Source of the DNA: Candidatus Nanohaloarchaea archaeon
GTDB taxonomy: Archaea > Nanohalarchaeota > Nanosalinia > Nanosalinales > Nanosalinaceae
Direction of reading: 5' to 3'
Length of the DNA stretch: 64,000 nucleotides
Assembly: GCA_013343275.1 (NCBI GenBank)
Contig: CP046106.1
Location: 558,001-622,000, forward strand
Shown piece after piece: positions 20,135-27,268 of the stretch. The stretch's first letter is position 1. Every line of letters begins with the position of its first letter. The position numbers and the translations under genes were made by a program. Under the pieces are notes generated by a model, which saw nothing but the letters and a program-made list of their open reading frames with translations, did no database searches and had not been told where the DNA came from.

Positions 20135-21289
20135 CTATCTCTGGAGTTCTAGATCGATGTTTCTGTCCCACATTTCCTGGGCCAGTTCGCCGTCGTACAT
20201 CATCTGCTGCACCAGCTCATCTGCATTCTCCTTTCTCTCCTGGTGCTCCTGAAGGAACTCGTTCAACTCTTCTACCAGTATTTCCTTGATCTCGCCAGTC
20301 ATCATCTCGCCGGAGGAGTACTTCTCAGCGATCTCCCGGATTCTCTCATCGTCCTCCATCAAAAGGTTTCTCAACCACTGGAAAGAGGTATCAACTGCCA
20401 GATCAGCGCCTTCCTCACGGTGTTCTTCCAGAGTATCGCCTCCACCTGAGTAAGCATGCTTCTTGACCTTCTCCTCGACCTCTTCAGGGCTGTCATCCAG
20501 CATGATCGCGGTCTTCGGCTTCGAGGAACTCATCTTCCCCTCAGGCCCTGTCAACGCCGGGATAAACTTGGAGTGGATCGCCGCTGTCTTCTTGTGGCCG
20601 AACTTCTCGGCAATATCCCTCTGGATCCTCCAGTACGGATCCTGATCGATCGCAGCCGGGATAACGCACCGCTTGTCCTCGAAGAATGTCGGAATATTCT
20701 GTATAGCAGGCCAGAAATTCATTCCAATATTGGTCGAGCCTTCAAAGCCGAAAACGCTCTGGGCCTGTGAATTATTGATTTTTTCGGCAATCTTCACGAT
20801 TCCATCATACATGTGACCCATGTATTCTCTGTTTCGGAAGATGAATGTCTTGTCAGGATCAAAGCCAACAGCTGCGATCTCCCTGATATTATCCTCTGCG
20901 TACTTATCGATTTCCTCATCTGTTATATCGCGGTCCCAGTACTTCTCGTCGTCAGTAACCTGTATATACACGTTGACATCGAACTTCTCCTGAATCCACT
21001 TCGTGAAGTAGAAACTGATAATATGGCCTATATGCATCTTGCCGCTAGGCCCGATACCGGTATACAGGAAGAAGCCGTCTTCTTCCTCGTACTCATCAAG
21101 CGCCTTGTCAAGGCCTCTGTGGGAGTAGATGAAGTCTCTCTTCATGTAGAGGTTCTCATCTCCAGCCAGATCGAAGAATCTCTCCTTCAACTCCTCGTCG
21201 ATCTCCTCGGTTCCGAATTTATCTATTAGTCTATCGTAGTCTACCTGACCCTCCACATCGAAAGGCGTCACATCAAAATCCTCTGCCAT
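20135..21289 (-). CDS. trpS: Tryptophanyl-tRNA synthetase
   Basis: The 384-residue class I synthetase has a HIGH-type motif in GIGPSGKMHIGHIISF (~78-93) and a KMSKS-type motif in GPEGKMSSSKPKTAI (~252-266). The long N-terminal part and DDEKYWDRDIT match archaeal/eukaryotic TrpRS. An aggagg motif precedes the start by ~13 bases, and the M20 peptidase gene ends 16 bases upstream, so trpS is probably the third gene of an operon. Confidence 0.92.
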   Translation of the reverse strand: MAEDFDVTPFDVEGQVDYDRLIDKFGTEEIDEELKERFFDLAGDENLYMKRDFIYSHRGLDKALDEYEEEDGFFLYTGIGPSGKMHIGHIISFYFTKWIQEKFDVNVYIQVTDDEKYWDRDITDEEIDKYAEDNIREIAAVGFDPDKTFIFRNREYMGHMYDGIVKIAEKINNSQAQSVFGFEGSTNIGMNFWPAIQNIPTFFEDKRCVIPAAIDQDPYWRIQRDIAEKFGHKKTAAIHSKFIPALTGPEGKMSSSKPKTAIMLDDSPEEVEEKVKKHAYSGGGDTLEEHREEGADLAVDTSFQWLRNLLMEDDERIREIAEKYSSGEMMTGEIKEILVEELNEFLQEHQERKENADELVQQMMYDGELAQEMWDRNIDLELQR

Positions 21290-21305: not shown

Positions 21306-22358
21306 CTAGTTAAGTTCTGATCGAAGAAAGCTTTTCAAGATTTCACAGTATGCTTCCAGGCTTTCAACCTCCACATACTCGTCTTCAGCGTGAAGATTGT
21401 AGCCTTCCGGGCCGAAACAGACCGCAGGAACACCTTTCTCGGTGAAGAACCTCATGTCGCTCGCAAAGTTCTCCCTCCTGAAATCAACCGTTTCTCCAGA
21501 AACTTCCTCAGCTGAAGTTTTCAGGGCCTGAGCTCCAGAATTTTCCTCCGAAGTCTCCAGCATCGGGGCCTCCGCCAGGACTTCGTACTCCAGGCCTCCC
21601 ATTTCTTCTAGATCTCTCAGAACTTCCTCCTTCGGGTACTGGTTTGAGTACCGGATATCTACCTGTAGAGAGGCCTTGTCAGGTATCTGGTTGACAGGTC
21701 CTTCAGCGGAGATATTGCCCAGGTTGATCGTGGTTCCAAACTCGGCCTCATGGTTAAATCCTGATCTGAACTCCATGTACTTTTTGAGGAGTTTTTCGGC
21801 CGCGTTCTCGCCTCTATCAGGTTTGGACGCGTGAGCGTTCTCCCCTGAGGCCTTTAACTCGAGCTGGAGAACCCCTTTCTGCTCTGTGACTATTGATGGG
21901 AAATGACCTGAGTCATCGGGCTCCGCTGAAATTACCAGTTCCGGTTCAATCCCTGTTTCTTCAGTTACGTGGCCTGTGCCGTTAAATCCTCCTCTTTCCT
22001 CGTCAGATGTAATTAGGATTCCTAGATTCTCGGCCTCAACTTTCTGGGCAGCTTCGATGATACAGGCAATCCCTGACTTCATGTCGGCTGTTCCTCGGCC
22101 GTAAATTCGGCCGTTACGCCTTTCTGGTCGGAAGAGCGAGTCTTTTGCATCTACCACATCGATATGGCCGTGGAGGAGAATTTGCGGTTCACCCCTCGTA
22201 GCCAGTAGAGATTTTTCTCCTTCCTCCTCGAATCTCTGTATATCAAAGTCTTCTGGCAGTTCTTTCTCAACCAGTTGAAGGCCTTTCTCTATTTCTCCTA
22301 GGTTTCCTTCTACCGTCCTGAGTTTTACCAGTTCTTCAGTCATTTCCTCTATATTCAT
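21306..22358 (-). CDS. M20-family peptidase/deacylase (ArgE/DapE-like)
   Basis: The 350-residue protein is a dizinc hydrolase. Ligand segments are LLHGHIDVVDA (His and adjacent Asp), GRGTADMKSGIACII (bridging Asp), SDEERGGFNGTGH (catalytic Glu pair) and ISAEPDD, with a distal His in GYNLHAEDEYV. A lid domain (~170-275) separates the two halves. Substrates in this family include N-acyl amino acids and small peptides; which one applies cannot be told. It overlaps the GNAT gene by 4 bases (ATGA). Confidence 0.85.
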   Translation of the reverse strand: MNIEEMTEELVKLRTVEGNLGEIEKGLQLVEKELPEDFDIQRFEEEGEKSLLATRGEPQILLHGHIDVVDAKDSLFRPERRNGRIYGRGTADMKSGIACIIEAAQKVEAENLGILITSDEERGGFNGTGHVTEETGIEPELVISAEPDDSGHFPSIVTEQKGVLQLELKASGENAHASKPDRGENAAEKLLKKYMEFRSGFNHEAEFGTTINLGNISAEGPVNQIPDKASLQVDIRYSNQYPKEEVLRDLEEMGGLEYEVLAEAPMLETSEENSGAQALKTSAEEVSGETVDFRRENFASDMRFFTEKGVPAVCFGPEGYNLHAEDEYVEVESLEAYCEILKSFLRSELN

Positions 22359-23083
22359 GCCATTCTCTCGCCTCCTTCAGTGAATTCGTAGTCGGACTTC
22401 CTGGCTGCTCTTCCCAGGCTGTGTGCGGCCTCCGATTCGCTGACCTCTCCTGCTACAACCAGGGCATCGCCATCCTCGAAGGACATGTTGAGGCCTTCTT
22501 CTCCATACATAAAGTCCTGGAAATCATCGTTCTCCGGTATGCTGGAGTACATTCCTCCATCGTAGATGTCTGCGTAGGCCTCTCTCATTACCGGGCCTTC
22601 CATTTCTTTGTCGACGTCGATCGCTTCTCCCAGATCCTGTACTTCTTCCAGCATCTCCTCTTCTTTTCCTGGCTGTGGGTATACTTCGAAGCAGTTGTCT
22701 GCGCAGGCGTACATGTTCGGGTTCTGCGTTCTATAGCCGAAAAGCTCGTCTCCCTCCGCCTCCTCCACCACTCCTCTGCTGAGTAGTGTACTGCCGACGC
22801 ATCTTCCCTGCAGGCTATCGTCAACCGCAAGACCTACCTCGTAGACAGTGTCGTCCATCCGGGATAGGCCTGAGAATGCTACGTACTCTCCGTCCTCGTC
22901 TTTTGCTGTGACGAGTGTAGGTACTCTGAGGTGGTCTCTTGCGTCCTGATCGGTTGGGACACCTTCCTTGGAGAAAGCGTTCTGCGCGACGTCAACAAGC
23001 TGTTGTTCGGCCTCGGAGTTGGCCTCTAGAAATTCTTCTGGATTTTGATGTACCTCTATCTCAAGGCTTCCAAAAACGTCCAC
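22355..23083 (-). CDS. GNAT-family N-acetyltransferase-like protein
   Basis: The 242-residue protein has a GNAT acetyl-CoA motif in YEVGLAVDDSLQGRCVGSTLLSRGV (read across ~82-106), with QGRCVGS as the Q/R-x-x-G-x-G/A loop. Residues ~115-242 are not obviously GNAT-like and include cysteines in YACADNCFEVYPQ. Overlap with the downstream M20 hydrolase suggests a joint role in acylation and deacylation of a small molecule, which is inference. Confidence 0.65.
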   Translation of the reverse strand: MDVFGSLEIEVHQNPEEFLEANSEAEQQLVDVAQNAFSKEGVPTDQDARDHLRVPTLVTAKDEDGEYVAFSGLSRMDDTVYEVGLAVDDSLQGRCVGSTLLSRGVVEEAEGDELFGYRTQNPNMYACADNCFEVYPQPGKEEEMLEEVQDLGEAIDVDKEMEGPVMREAYADIYDGGMYSSIPENDDFQDFMYGEEGLNMSFEDGDALVVAGEVSESEAAHSLGRAARKSDYEFTEGGERMA

Positions 23084-23400
23084 CCTGTTCTCGGGCTTCC
23101 GATGTCGAATAGTTTTCAGTCTGTTCCATAAGTCAAATCACGTAAGCAAAGATTGCCAGAAAAGCTTTAAATAGCTTACAGAGCTTCTACCTGGTTTTTA
23201 GAGATAGCTGAAGCTGTAGAGATAAGTTTAACCTGGAGTAATACTGGCAAAGCTAAAATAAAACGTATGTGGAGTTAAGGCCATGAGAAGTTCTTGATTG
23301 AGGAGATCTGTAGATAGCTGTGGCTCAGAGAATTATTTCTGTGCAGGAGGCCAAAAGCATCCACCTTTCTGAGCCATGTTGAGATGTTGAAGGTTCACTG
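23084..23400. other. 317-base gap with promoter-like signals and one micro-ORF
   Basis: No ordinary gene is visible. A strong TATA-like gctttaaatagc lies at about 23163-23174 and could drive the leftward GNAT operon or a rightward transcript. A 9-base inverted repeat (tggctcaga at 23321-23329, tctgagcca at 23368-23376) flanks the minus-strand micro-ORF described separately. Confidence 0.4.
23333..23377 (-). CDS. Micro-ORF, 14 residues, KGGCF motif (putative)
   Basis: On the minus strand an ATG begins MAQKGGCFWPPAQK and stop. A TATA-like attttaac (23400-23408) lies ~27 bases before the ATG, the spacing used by leaderless genes here. The core AAA-GGT-GGA-TG(C)-TTT matches the micro-ORF at 25445 codon for codon, apart from a synonymous TGC/TGT change. 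The ORF lies inside a 9-base inverted repeat, so a small structured RNA is the main alternative. Confidence 0.35.
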   Translation of the reverse strand: MAQKGGCFWPPAQK

Positions 23401-23408
23401 TTAAAATT
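23400..23408 (-). promoter_or_regulatory. TATA-like element before the 23377 micro-ORF
   Basis: The minus-strand attttaac overlaps the stop codon of the AstE/AspA-like gene and lies ~27 bases before the micro-ORF ATG. Position is the only evidence. Confidence 0.35.
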
Positions 23409-24159
23409 CTTTTCTCTGGGCCCGGTAGCCAAGCGTTCCATTGTATCCATTTGTTGACATGAGAACCGGGTAGAACGGTTTTTCAGCACTTAAACTCTCG
23501 TCTCCTCTGGTAGCGTAGACTTCACCTTCCTCCACTTTCTTGAAGTTCTCGGCCTGGAAGCTCCAGTCACCTTCTACCTTATCAAATACCTCGAATAACT
23601 GTGGACTTGATTTCCGGGCCTTACCGTCTATAACGTTCTGGGAAGCTAGGAAGTTTTTGATTACACCTAGCGCGTTTTCAACGGCCTGATCTGTTCCCTG
23701 GAATCCCGCCTCTACAACCACTCCTTCTACGTGTTCGTGAAGCTTCCCTTCTTTACCAGGGAAATGCGCTGCATTCTTTGCTCCTGTCGATGCAAGCATG
23801 TCCCGGATTTCGTCGTTCAGAGTTGAGCAGGTTGCGAAAGGTAGCGGATAGGAATGCGTAGTGTGTATGTCCAGAAGCTTTGTGCCTTCTACAGCATCGA
23901 TTATCTTCGAGGCCAACCTCTCCTCGTACCTCTCTGACTCAGGATCTCCAGGAAAGGATCTGTTCAGGTCTGACTCGAGAAATCTCTGACCTTCAAGAAG
24001 CGCTTTTTCGTTTCCGATCACAAACTGGACCGGTTTACGGAACTCTCTTTCCTCCGATAGAAACTTCTCGATCGCTTTCTTGCCTGCCGGCTCATCACCG
24101 TGAACCGAGCCCATTACAGTAAATTCAGGCTCTCCATCTCCTCTTCTCACTACCTTCAT
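23401..24159 (-). CDS. AstE/AspA-family zinc hydrolase (succinylglutamate desuccinylase/aspartoacylase type)
   Basis: The 252-residue protein has the M14-like zinc site of this family: GSVHGDEPAG (His and Glu ligands, ~17-26), DLNRSFPGDP (~64-73) and LLDIHTTHSYPLPF (His ligand, ~95-108), with VVVEAGFQG carrying the candidate catalytic Glu. These enzymes cleave N-acyl groups from amino acids or related compounds. It follows pgk by 40 bases on the same strand. The substrate cannot be predicted. Confidence 0.82.
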   Translation of the reverse strand: MKVVRRGDGEPEFTVMGSVHGDEPAGKKAIEKFLSEEREFRKPVQFVIGNEKALLEGQRFLESDLNRSFPGDPESERYEERLASKIIDAVEGTKLLDIHTTHSYPLPFATCSTLNDEIRDMLASTGAKNAAHFPGKEGKLHEHVEGVVVEAGFQGTDQAVENALGVIKNFLASQNVIDGKARKSSPQLFEVFDKVEGDWSFQAENFKKVEEGEVYATRGDESLSAEKPFYPVLMSTNGYNGTLGYRAQRKEF

Positions 24160-24199
24160 AAAAAGAAAATTCTTCGAAGGTAATTCAAAAAGATTTCAC

Positions 24200-25360
24200 C
24201 TATCTCAGGGCCTCTACGGCCGCCAGTTTCTCTCCACTCAGATACCTGACAAAGGCTCCTCCTGCTATAGAGACATGTGAGAAATCTTCCAGTTCGTAGT
24301 TAAATCTCTGTACAAGCGAGGACGTGTGGCCTCCTCCAAGAACAGTGTAGGCATCGGACTCTGCCATGGCCTTGACTATTTTCCGCGTTCCTTCCGGATG
24401 TTCTTCGAAAGCACCCATAGGCCCTTTCATAACTACGGATTCCGCATCCCTGATCTCTTCAGCAAATTTTTCTGCAGTTTCAGGGCCTATATCCCACGTC
24501 ATTTCGTCCGGTATTTCCTCTACCCTGTACTCTCCAGAATCCGTTCTGACGTCCTCCGGGAGCACTACCTTCTCGCTGTAGTTATTGATTACTCTCTCAA
24601 GTTCTCCTTTCTTTGAGTCAAGGCCGTGGTCTTCAATCCACTGCTTCTTCTCTCCCAGATCGTGGCCTTCTATAATGAGAGCGAGTTCTCCAGGAATTCC
24701 CCCCAGTAGGACTTTATCCACAGATTCTATCATTTCATCCAGTATACCGATCAGGTCGGAAGGTTTCTCCCCACCGAGAACAAGCACCCCGTTATCAAAC
24801 CTGTCTCTAACTTTTCCACAGCTCTCAAGCTCCTTCTCCATGACAGGGCCTGCGTAAGAATCCAGTTTCTTGGTAAACCCTACCATGGAGCCATGGCTCC
24901 TGTGAGCTGCGGAGAACGCATCATCGACGTAGAGATCAAATTCTGGTGCAATCCTTTTCACAAATATATCTTCGGCGTGTTGTTCTGCCGAGGCATTTCT
25001 GAGCTCCTCTGAAAGAAACCTTACATTCTCCAGCAGCGCTACACCTCCTTCATCCATGTCTTCAACAGCTTCAGCAAGTTCAGGCCCGAAGAAACCCGGA
25101 ATAAATTCTACTTCATTCCCGAGAGAATCAGATAGGATCTCTGAATGCTTTTTCAGCGACATGAAATCGTTTCTACCTGGTCGGCCCTGGTGAGCCATCA
25201 CCACTGTCTTCGCGCCTCTATCAGAAAGCTCCTCTACCGTCTCAAGGTACCTCTTGAATCTTACAGTTTTCTGTGGTTCGCCGTCCTCAATCGGAAGGTT
25301 TAGATCAGTTCTGAGAAGAACTTCCTGGCCCTGAATATCAATATCATCTATAGAGTTCAT
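24200..25360 (-). CDS. pgk: Phosphoglycerate kinase
   Basis: The ATG at 25360 gives 386 residues beginning MNSIDDIDIQGQEVLLRTDLN, which fits the family N-terminus; the frame extends 18 codons upstream with a poor match. Marks are RTDLNLP, AHQGRPG, the nucleotide-domain VLGGEKPSDLIG and the C-terminal TVLGGGHTSSLV. It transfers phosphate between 1,3-bisphosphoglycerate and ADP, reversibly. With ppsA, FBP aldolase and FBPase it fits a gluconeogenic or reversible lower glycolytic path. Confidence 0.9.
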   Translation of the reverse strand: MNSIDDIDIQGQEVLLRTDLNLPIEDGEPQKTVRFKRYLETVEELSDRGAKTVVMAHQGRPGRNDFMSLKKHSEILSDSLGNEVEFIPGFFGPELAEAVEDMDEGGVALLENVRFLSEELRNASAEQHAEDIFVKRIAPEFDLYVDDAFSAAHRSHGSMVGFTKKLDSYAGPVMEKELESCGKVRDRFDNGVLVLGGEKPSDLIGILDEMIESVDKVLLGGIPGELALIIEGHDLGEKKQWIEDHGLDSKKGELERVINNYSEKVVLPEDVRTDSGEYRVEEIPDEMTWDIGPETAEKFAEEIRDAESVVMKGPMGAFEEHPEGTRKIVKAMAESDAYTVLGGGHTSSLVQRFNYELEDFSHVSIAGGAFVRYLSGEKLAAVEALR

Positions 25361-25411
25361 GGCTGCTGTATTACGATGTAATACTTCCAGGTTTTTAACT
25401 TTTCCAAGCAG

Positions 25412-25420
25412 CATTTAAGA
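25412..25420 (+). promoter_or_regulatory. TATA-like element before the 25445 micro-ORF
   Basis: The element catttaaga lies 25-33 bases before the ATG at 25445, the usual leaderless spacing in this window. Confidence 0.4.
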
Positions 25421-25444
25421 TTCCGGTCAAAACTTCTCCATACA

Positions 25445-25504
25445 ATGAAAGGTGGATGTTTTGGACTGTCCTCAGAGGCAGTCACACGGCAAAGTATTCA
25501 ATAA
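25445..25504 (+). CDS. Micro-ORF, 19 residues, KGGCF motif (putative)
   Basis: An ATG at 25445 begins MKGGCFGLSSEAVTRQSIQ and stop, placed correctly behind a TATA-like box. The KGGCF core matches the minus-strand micro-ORF at 23333-23377 with one synonymous codon difference. The gap between pgk and glyS holds nothing else. The transcript could instead be a small RNA: gactg and cagtc can pair around 25464-25484. Too short for family recognition. Confidence 0.35.
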   Translation: MKGGCFGLSSEAVTRQSIQ

Positions 25505-25555
25505 TCTAAAACCTTCTAGTTCTGACTATAAAAATTTCCACGAGAGTGTTTCTGC

Positions 25556-27268
25556 ATGAGCAAGTCACTTACAGAAAAACTTTCTGAGCTGGCGAAGAGA
25601 AGAGGATTCTTCTTCCAGTCTTCAGAGGCCTACGGTGGTGTCGCAGGTTTCCAGACCTTCGGCCCCGAAGGCGCAGAACTCAAGAGAAACATCGAAAACA
25701 GCTGGAGAGAAACATTCTCCGACAGCCTAGGCCATCGAGAGATCGAGGCCCCGACCATTATGCCGGAGCCGGTTTTCGAGGCCTCAGGGCATCTAGACAC
25801 GTTCGACGACATGATAATAGAATGCCCGGAATGCGGAACATCAAGCAGAGCCGACCATCTCGTGGAAGATAACACAGATATCGAAGAAGCAGAAAGCTTC
25901 TCACACGAGCAGGTAGAGGCCTTGATCAAGGAACACAACCTTGAATGCCCAAGCTGCGGAGAAGACCTCAGTAACGTAGCAGTAGAGGACTTCAACCTGA
26001 TGTTCGAGACAAGCATCGGCCCAGGATCAGGCCAGACAGGATACCTCAGGCCGGAAACCGCACAGGGAATATTCGTAGAGTTCCCACGGCTGAAGGAATA
26101 CGCAAGAAACCAGCTACCGTTCGGCATAACACAGATTGGTAAAGCATACAGAAACGAAATTTCACCGAGGAAAGGTCTCGTCAGAGTCCGTGAACTGACT
26201 CAGGCCGAGCTTGAGCACTTCATCGATCCGGAAGAAGACGAACCACGGCTTGAGAAAGTTGAAGATGTCGAGCTGAAGCTTTACAGCCGTGAACAACAGA
26301 ATGCTGAAGACGGTGAACCTCAGTTCATGACCGTCAAGGAAGCAGTTGAAGAAGAGGTTGTCGAATCTGACTGGATTGCCTATTATCTCGGTATCGCGAA
26401 GCAGTGGTATGAGGAGATCGGAGTCGATATGGAGCGCTTCCGGTTCCGCCAGCATCAAAACGATGAACTCTCCCACTACGCAAGCGACTGCTGGGACGCA
26501 GAGAGCCAGGTCGACGGCGACTGGATCGAGATCACCGGTTTCGCGTACAGAGGCTGCTACGATCTGAAGAAGCACGACCAGTACAGCCGAGAAGACTACA
26601 AGATCTTCAAAGAGTACGACGAACCAAAGACCGTAGAGAAGAATACAGTCAGCCCGGACATGGGTTATCTAGGCCCTGAGTTCGGTGATAAGGCAGGCAA
26701 GATTGCAGAGAAGCTTGAGGAGATCGCAGAGAACGAACCTGAAGCCTTTGAAGCAGACAAGGTATTTGTCGAAGTGGACGGCGAGGAATACTCCGTTCCC
26801 GCTGATAAATGCAACTTCAGCGTCGAAGAAGTCACTGAGAACGGCGAGCATATTCTCCCTCACGTTGTCGAGCCTTCATTCGGTATCGACAGGATGGTTT
26901 ACACAGTTCTGGCTCATGCCTACGATGAGGACGAGGTCGACGATGAGGAGAGAACTGTTATGCGGTTCAACGAAGAGGTTGCTCCGACAGAGGTCGCTGT
27001 CTTCCCTCTAATGGATAAAGAAGGCCTTGGCGAGAAAGCACAGGAAGTAGCGGACAAGCTGCGTGAAGAAGGTTTCTCCGTCAAGTACGATGATACCGGA
27101 AATATCGGTAAGCGTTACAGAAGGCAGGACGAAGTCGGCACACCTGTCTGCGTAACAATCGATTATGAGACACTTGAAGATGAGCCTGAGACCGTAACTG
27201 TCAGGGATCGTGACTCGACGGATCAGGAACGTGTGGAGATCTCAGATCTGGCCGATTACCTGGCCTGA
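25556..27268 (+). CDS. glyS: Glycyl-tRNA synthetase (alpha2 type)
   Basis: The 570-residue class II synthetase is the archaeal/eukaryotic/Gram-positive dimer type. Marks are RRGFFFQSSEAYGGVAGFQTFGPEG at the start, two CxxC pairs (ECPECGTSS, LECPSCGEDL) in an inserted zinc region, LRPETAQGIFVEFPRL (motif 2 region), QIGKAYRNEISPRKGLVRVREL and PSFGIDRMVYTVL (motif 3). The anticodon-binding domain occupies the last ~110 residues. A TATA-like ctataaaaa precedes the ATG by ~30 bases. Confidence 0.94.
   Translation: MSKSLTEKLSELAKRRGFFFQSSEAYGGVAGFQTFGPEGAELKRNIENSWRETFSDSLGHREIEAPTIMPEPVFEASGHLDTFDDMIIECPECGTSSRADHLVEDNTDIEEAESFSHEQVEALIKEHNLECPSCGEDLSNVAVEDFNLMFETSIGPGSGQTGYLRPETAQGIFVEFPRLKEYARNQLPFGITQIGKAYRNEISPRKGLVRVRELTQAELEHFIDPEEDEPRLEKVEDVELKLYSREQQNAEDGEPQFMTVKEAVEEEVVESDWIAYYLGIAKQWYEEIGVDMERFRFRQHQNDELSHYASDCWDAESQVDGDWIEITGFAYRGCYDLKKHDQYSREDYKIFKEYDEPKTVEKNTVSPDMGYLGPEFGDKAGKIAEKLEEIAENEPEAFEADKVFVEVDGEEYSVPADKCNFSVEEVTENGEHILPHVVEPSFGIDRMVYTVLAHAYDEDEVDDEERTVMRFNEEVAPTEVAVFPLMDKEGLGEKAQEVADKLREEGFSVKYDDTGNIGKRYRRQDEVGTPVCVTIDYETLEDEPETVTVRDRDSTDQERVEISDLADYLA

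Follow-up and report, generated by a model that had tools for sequence, protein, structure and literature searches.

In the trpL, ilv/leu and pheL attenuators, a short leader open reading frame (ORF) upstream of the genes senses tRNA charging at specific codons, and in T-box riboswitches, which bind the tRNA directly and occur in tandem copies, a specifier codon identifies the aminoacyl-tRNA synthetase (aaRS) or biosynthesis gene under control. A +1 shift at a slow codon in the ribosomal A site serves as a regulatory or expression readout in the eukaryotic antizyme and Ty systems, whose signals are polyamines or a rare tRNA. Frameshifting in E. coli at a hungry codon, one whose aminoacyl-tRNA is scarce (Gallant and Lindsley), has reportedly been described as an error under starvation. 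In the frameshifting leader of RF2 (prfB), the spacing that stimulates the shift is 3 nt, the ribosome slips at CUU_U (at UUU_U in a few species) and the slow UGA is nearly always followed by C; CCC_U sites are also known for +1 shifts (PMC5009743). Atkins et al. (2016) noted that hungry-codon shifts could make starvation-specific trans-frame products and that "no examples are known" (PMC5009743), and a 2021 review of archaeal recoding gives one confirmed cellular -1 case and one suggested +1 case in a virus (PMC8211752). Here we analyze two tiny ORFs with a KGGCF core in a 64,000-nt stretch of DNA from Candidatus Nanohaloarchaea archaeon (GenBank assembly GCA_013343275.1, contig CP046106.1, positions 558,001 to 622,000 of the forward strand; hereafter the window), together with related leaders of the same phylum. 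Each tiny ORF is very probably the sensor half of a leader that would use programmed +1 frameshifting at a hungry sense codon.

Both ORFs are present where the original prediction had placed them, on opposite strands (Table 1), each with a TATA-like or AT-rich box about 30 nt before its ATG; both look translated, and they share the core AAAGGTGGATGYTTT, with one synonymous base differing. Their relatedness is above chance, as the KGGCF-coding pattern AAR-GGN-GGN-TGY-TTY has 3 sites in the 915,886-bp genome, against about 0.2 expected by simple arithmetic and 0 for the reversed-pattern control. The third site, at 451562, reads KGGCF-V and lies upstream of valyl-tRNA synthetase; the plus-strand copy of the window (KGGCF-G) precedes glycyl-tRNA synthetase (GlyRS) and the minus-strand copy (KGGCF-W) heads an operon ending in tryptophanyl-tRNA synthetase (TrpRS). 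These targets, each matching the codon after KGGCF, had been overlooked, as had a third cassette of the window, the second of Trp type (23087-23070, minus strand, QGGRFW); pgk and the AstE-like gene, which had been taken as the context of the ORFs, are merely neighbours. The information lies in the residue that follows KGGCF: it names the downstream synthetase.

The family motif is NAR-GGU-GRN-YRY-KUU followed by one specifier codon, X. We surveyed stretches around motif matches in 28 genomes of the phylum (G000 being the source genome of the window), chosen regardless of genes and with about eleven matches left out, and named enzymes using NCBIfam and similarity to NCBIfam-named relatives. 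The further copies in related nanohaloarchaea that were searched for were found: these stretches hold 131 motif matches, 112 of them within a short ORF with an in-frame ATG (hereafter the leaders), spread over 21 of the 28 genomes. In the 19 genomes of the family, matches to the degenerate motif number about 122 and those to reversed-pattern controls about 15. Codon 1 is Lys, Gln or Glu and never TAR (stop), which argues that frame 0 is read. Codon 4 is CGY in 52 leaders, TGY in 39, TAY in 19 and CAT in 2, so that Cys is not conserved, and codon 5, the P-site codon, is UUU (Phe) in 77 and GUU (Val) in 35. Of the protein-level constraint that the synonymous difference had hinted at, what stood is a fixed reading frame; the conservation itself lies at the nucleotide level. 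The base 3' of X is C in 67 of the 112 leaders, and TATA-like boxes lie mostly 25-35 nt before the leader ATG. The SerRS leaders of G000 and G003 carry CCC-UCU as P-site and specifier codons instead of UUU or GUU (G000:C1:670699, L129/L044, MKGGRPSENRR...), with frame +1 open for 165 and 213 nt to SerRS in G000 and G003. We also observed that a P-site GTT is nearly confined to X beginning with C (29/32), and that TTT is found where X begins with A or G (43/43).

The specifier codon matches the downstream enzyme without exception. An aaRS is among the next genes of 71 of the leaders, and X encodes the amino acid of that aaRS in all 71, compared with a mean of 8.9 and a maximum of 23 in 100,000 permutations. 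These matches span 20 genomes and 65 genome-enzyme pairs and cover 12 synthetases (Cys, Phe, Gly, His, Lys, Leu, Pro, Ser, Thr, Val, Trp and Tyr). A target other than an aaRS also fits its specifier, X being Ile upstream of threonine ammonia-lyase (IlvA family). Ala, Arg, Asp, Glu, Asn, Gln and Met are never X among the 112 leaders.

After the cassette, frame 0 stops at least 38 nt (median 66 nt) before the gene. In all 50 direct aaRS leaders, whose spacers measure 74-200 nt, frame +1, entered directly behind the P-site codon, stays open as far as the gene start; dinucleotide shuffles of these spacers predict 11.6 such leaders (P about 1e-36). Frame +2 of the same leaders is open at chance level (11 vs 11.7 expected). 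The +1 stop falls -13 to +16 nt from the start in 49 of the 50 and overlaps the start exactly, as ATGA or GTGA, in 18. The outlier, CysRS of G023, has a mis-picked start; after about 300 nt, its +1 frame reaches the ATGA at which CysRS truly begins. Twelve leaders, Trp leader 2 of the window among them, overlap the downstream ORF, frame +1 running directly into it.

Some leaders carry more than one cassette. In G004 (His, Trp), G009 (His and two Trp), G011 (His) and G008 (Ser), the first cassette is followed in its frame +1 by another with the same X, which would be pointless unless ribosomes read that frame; the serial His cassette of G011 has CUU in the P site, as in RF2. Branched-chain leaders often have two cassettes in frame 0, for Ile or Val and then for Leu (L129, L091, L081, L022, L106, L107 and others), and in many of them frame +1 closes with poly-Ile/Leu/Val, while the aaRS leaders have a single X codon and no run in frame 0. 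Within the last 15 residues of frame +1, Ile-only leaders have 5-8 Ile and no Leu (4/4); several Leu leaders end in Leu runs and Ile+Leu leaders in both.

From these features we infer how pairing, slippage and reinitiation would proceed, how cassettes would act as gates and in which direction control would run. A near-leaderless transcript would begin at the leader ATG, as the TATA-like boxes suggest, and the ribosome would read to the NAR-GGU-GRN-YRY-KUU cassette. Since the 3' tail of 16S rRNA is GGATCACCTCC, to which RGGUGR is complementary, RGGUGR can pair with the anti-Shine-Dalgarno (anti-SD) sequence and may do so at this point. The distance of GGTG from ordinary starts is mostly 7-8 nt, but from the P-site codon of the cassette it is 5 nt; a spacing 2-3 nt below that of a normal start site, with KUU in the P site, would put a strain toward +1 on the ribosome, as in RF2. 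The A-site codon X would act as the sensor: with its cognate aminoacyl-tRNA plentiful, translation would stay in frame 0 and stop a few codons later, and with this tRNA scarce, the pause at X would lengthen, the P-site tRNA would slip by +1 and reading would go on in frame +1. The end of that frame within about 15 nt of the gene start, often at ATGA, would let the ribosome reinitiate on the aaRS through translational coupling; where leader and gene overlap, frame +1 would be the gene itself and yield a fusion. Starvation for an amino acid would in this way raise its own aaRS. Two frame-0 cassettes with different X (Ile or Val, then Leu) would form an OR gate, and a second same-X cassette in frame +1 (His, Trp, Ser) an AND gate. 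In the Ile/Leu/Val leaders of other operons, the codon run ending frame +1 would be an attenuator-like peptide reached only after the shift, and a plain attenuator seems to sit behind the shift in these branched-chain leaders. With almost the same confidence as for the window ORFs, we propose that this is a genome-wide code, in which the specifier within an RF2-like cassette would gauge the charging of one tRNA, the choice of frame would be the output, and cassettes would combine into OR and AND gates.

The leaders would work like RF2 frameshifting but are not members of that system. As in prfB, a short frame-0 ORF has within it an SD-like sequence that stands too near the P-site codon, this codon is a shift-prone NUU (CUU, rarely UUU, in RF2), the putative slow A-site codon is often followed by C, the +1 frame leads to a useful product, and the leader would serve as both sensor and effector. 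Unlike in RF2, the slow codon is not the UGA stop that RF2 itself reads; it is a sense codon that specifies an amino acid, with genes of 12 aaRS classes and of biosynthesis as targets. The +1 frame usually ends at the start of the next gene rather than forming that gene, the SD is GGUGR, the spacing is 5 nt rather than 3 nt in a different register, and the system is archaeal and genome-wide, with OR and AND arrangements, rather than confined to a single gene. With attenuators, the leaders share putatively charging-sensitive codons in a short ORF, and the Ile/Leu/Val class even has codon runs, in frame +1; they differ in having one specifier in a fixed cassette, in the readout by reading frame and in being archaeal, and no conserved terminator or antiterminator was seen in the two window leaders that were folded. 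The resemblance to T-box riboswitches, in specifier codon and tandem copies, is one of logic and not of homology, as the sensor here would be a translating ribosome instead of direct tRNA binding, an ORF would be needed and there is no T-box structure. The physical event would be the same as in E. coli hungry-codon frameshifting. Antizyme and Ty share the +1 shift at a slow A-site codon but have no amino-acid specifier. In the literature searched, which leaves out most subscription papers, KGGCF appears in no paper, and no such system was found under archaeal leader peptides, archaeal T-boxes or hungry-codon regulation.

Several points weigh against a frameshift. GGTG always holds a GTG in frame +1, which could start a second upstream ORF (uORF) with no shift at all, and GUU, found mainly where X starts with C, is a less obvious codon for +1 re-pairing. 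Trp leader 1 of the window opens into a short frame without a clear target. The trans-frame peptides are almost without codon-position bias (106/123/130 substitutions) and have many short indels; protein-coding constraint on them was essentially absent when tested, which suggests that only the openness of the +1 frame and the placement of its stop are selected. A TATA-like sequence lies about 29 nt before the own ATG of some aaRS genes, GlyRS above all, so that leader-independent transcripts may exist. Finally, as the loci were collected by motif, the apparent limits on codon 4 and on the P-site codon are partly a matter of ascertainment.

The first of these points leads to the alternative that survives best, although we consider it improbable: two overlapping uORFs, the first stalling at X for want of its aminoacyl-tRNA and the second starting from the GUG of GGUG and coupled to the gene. 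The GTG is present in every cassette, and the GNAT, HisG-like and AbrB-like overlapping genes open from it. However, a ribosome stalled at X would cover this GUG, so that starvation would turn the gene off, which is the wrong direction, and the two-uORF arrangement leaves unexplained the invariant G before GTG, the R at positions 3 and 8 (both partners of the anti-SD), the shift-prone P-site codons UUU, GUU, CCC and CUU and their fixed distance to X. Plain leader-peptide attenuation or stalling, in which a stall at X alters RNA folding or transcription and frame +1 is irrelevant, appears very unlikely: any codon-sensing leader would be expected to give the complete match of X to the aaRS, and hairpins do stand beside X in some leaders, but attenuation predicts neither 50 open +1 frames out of 50 that stop at the gene start, nor second cassettes in frame +1, nor a single X codon rather than a run, and the hairpins of the two folded window leaders are no more stable than shuffles (z = -1.4 and -0.6). 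It is scarcely credible that the leaders are an archaeal T-box-like RNA to which tRNA binds directly, with X as the specifier and the tRNA 3' end paired to UGGN. This reading has the specifier-codon logic on its side, and AARGGUGGN presumably resembles the T-box core, a likeness we take only as a lead; yet the N of UGGN is A in 97 of the 112 leaders whatever the amino acid, some leaders have UGAA, no Rfam T-box match was found, the cassette often stands directly after the ATG of a near-leaderless transcript, and the in-frame ATG and the codon 1 that is never TAR point to translation. We rejected T-box-like tRNA binding as N does not track the amino acid. The family of functional 14-19-residue Cys peptides proposed in the original prediction, for which the KGGCF core at both window sites spoke, is refuted as a general account, as codon 4 (YRY) gives Cys, Arg, Tyr or His, Phe gives way to Val, the C-terminal parts are unrelated and X follows the downstream enzyme.

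Other candidates were dropped. KGGCF as a peptide-level arrest motif did not survive the Cys/Arg/Tyr/His and Phe/Val swaps. A small structured RNA was rejected on the fold z-scores and the lack of an Rfam match, which likewise leave unsupported the pair of small RNAs that had been offered on account of inverted repeats nearby. A downstream CAAAACCTTCTAG element that would pair with the cassette, an idea from the GlyRS and TyrRS leaders, does not appear in the Val and Trp leaders of the source genome.

If the frameshift reading is right, these leaders would be a first natural use of hungry-codon frameshifting, an amino-acid-specific leader system in archaea and a third route, beside T-boxes and classical attenuators, by which each aaRS is coupled to the charging of its own tRNA. 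The system would need only a ribosome, and it would operate in salt-loving dwarf archaea that depend on a host and may live off its amino acids. Students of frameshift mechanics would gain an unusual data set, namely over 100 natural candidates for +1 shift sites whose trigger is known, and the design would be a compact one for amino-acid-controlled expression. Several annotated GTG starts would be wrong, the GNAT, HisG-like and AbrB-like proteins being frameshift fusions.

Table 1. Features of the Gly and Trp leader loci (positions in the window).
Feature	Position	Strand	Remarks
TATA-like box (TTTAAG), Gly leader	25414-25419	+	31 nt before ATG; putative promoter; 25-35 nt typical of the leader set
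Gly leader ORF, frame 0	25445-25504	+	MKGGCFGLSSEAVTRQSIQ, then stop
Gly shift cassette AAA GGT GGA TGT TTT + specifier GGA (Gly)	25448-25465	+	GGUGR complementary to 16S 3' end
Gly leader trans-frame (+1)	25464-25559	+	DCPQRQSHGKVFNNLKPSSSDYKNFHESVSA, then stop; ends GCA TGA; TGA overlaps GlyRS ATG (ATGA)
Glycyl-tRNA synthetase	25556-27268	+	TIGR00389, E=6e-200; gene regulated in the proposal
TATA-like box, Trp leader 1	23402-23407	-	30 nt before ATG; putative promoter
Trp leader 1 ORF, frame 0	23333-23377	-	MAQKGGCFWPPAQK, then stop
Trp leader 1 shift cassette AAA GGT GGA TGC TTT + specifier TGG (Trp)	23351-23368	-	
Trp leader 1 trans-frame (+1)	23275-23352	-	GLLHRNNSLSHSYLQISSIKNFSWP, then stop; one Trp codon near end; stops before leader 2
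Trp leader 2 ORF, frame 0	23061-23129	-	MEQTENYSTSEAREQGGRFWKP, then stop; not listed in the original prediction
Trp leader 2 shift cassette CAG GGT GGA CGT TTT + specifier TGG (Trp)	23070-23087	-	
GNAT-family ORF	22355-23083	-	Frame +1 of Trp leader 2; Acetyltransf_1, E=7e-5; TGA overlaps next ATG
M20-family peptidase	21306-22358	-	PF01546; second gene of the Trp-leader operon
Tryptophanyl-tRNA synthetase	20135-21289	-	NF008924, E=8e-164; third gene of the Trp-leader operon

The two Trp leaders of the window form a pair that recurs, with a spacing of 268-281 bp, in G001, G004, G008 and G010. The +1 reading of Trp leader 1 has an ending of the ...SSIKN-[FIL]-SW type that is common to relatives. 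The annotated GTG start of the GNAT ORF sits within the cassette of Trp leader 2, so that its product is probably a leader-GNAT frameshift fusion, which would carry the junction peptide ...EQGGRF-GSLEIEVHQNPEE.... Unrelated GNAT, HisG-like, AbrB-like, aminotransferase-like and M20 proteins begin with an unusual M-x-x-F that the cassette dictates, and these apparent starts in relatives are thus probably frameshift junctions.

Upstream of GlyRS, a TATA-like CTATAAAAATTT at 25527-25538 lies about 29 nt before the ATG, inside the open +1 frame, and recurs in relatives; it is possibly a second, leader-independent promoter. For GlyRS of G006 and G004 and for some TyrRS genes, the motif reveals no leader. 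In G006 (96% complete, same family; L227), no leader was found by motif, and GlyRS seems to start right after a TATA-like box; the motif-type leader may have been lost naturally or a different site may be used. An exact search for ATG-AARGGTGGATGYTTT in contigs of 84,980 species, in which variant motifs were not searched, gave 9 nanohaloarchaeal matches; the 16 others were scattered and at chance level.

The mostly unnamed proteins encoded after branched-chain leaders may serve amino-acid or peptide supply. Leaders reading QGGCVL or QGGRVL precede a class-I glutamine amidotransferase at G000:C1:319114 (minus strand, L163) and at G003:C1:659066 (L160).

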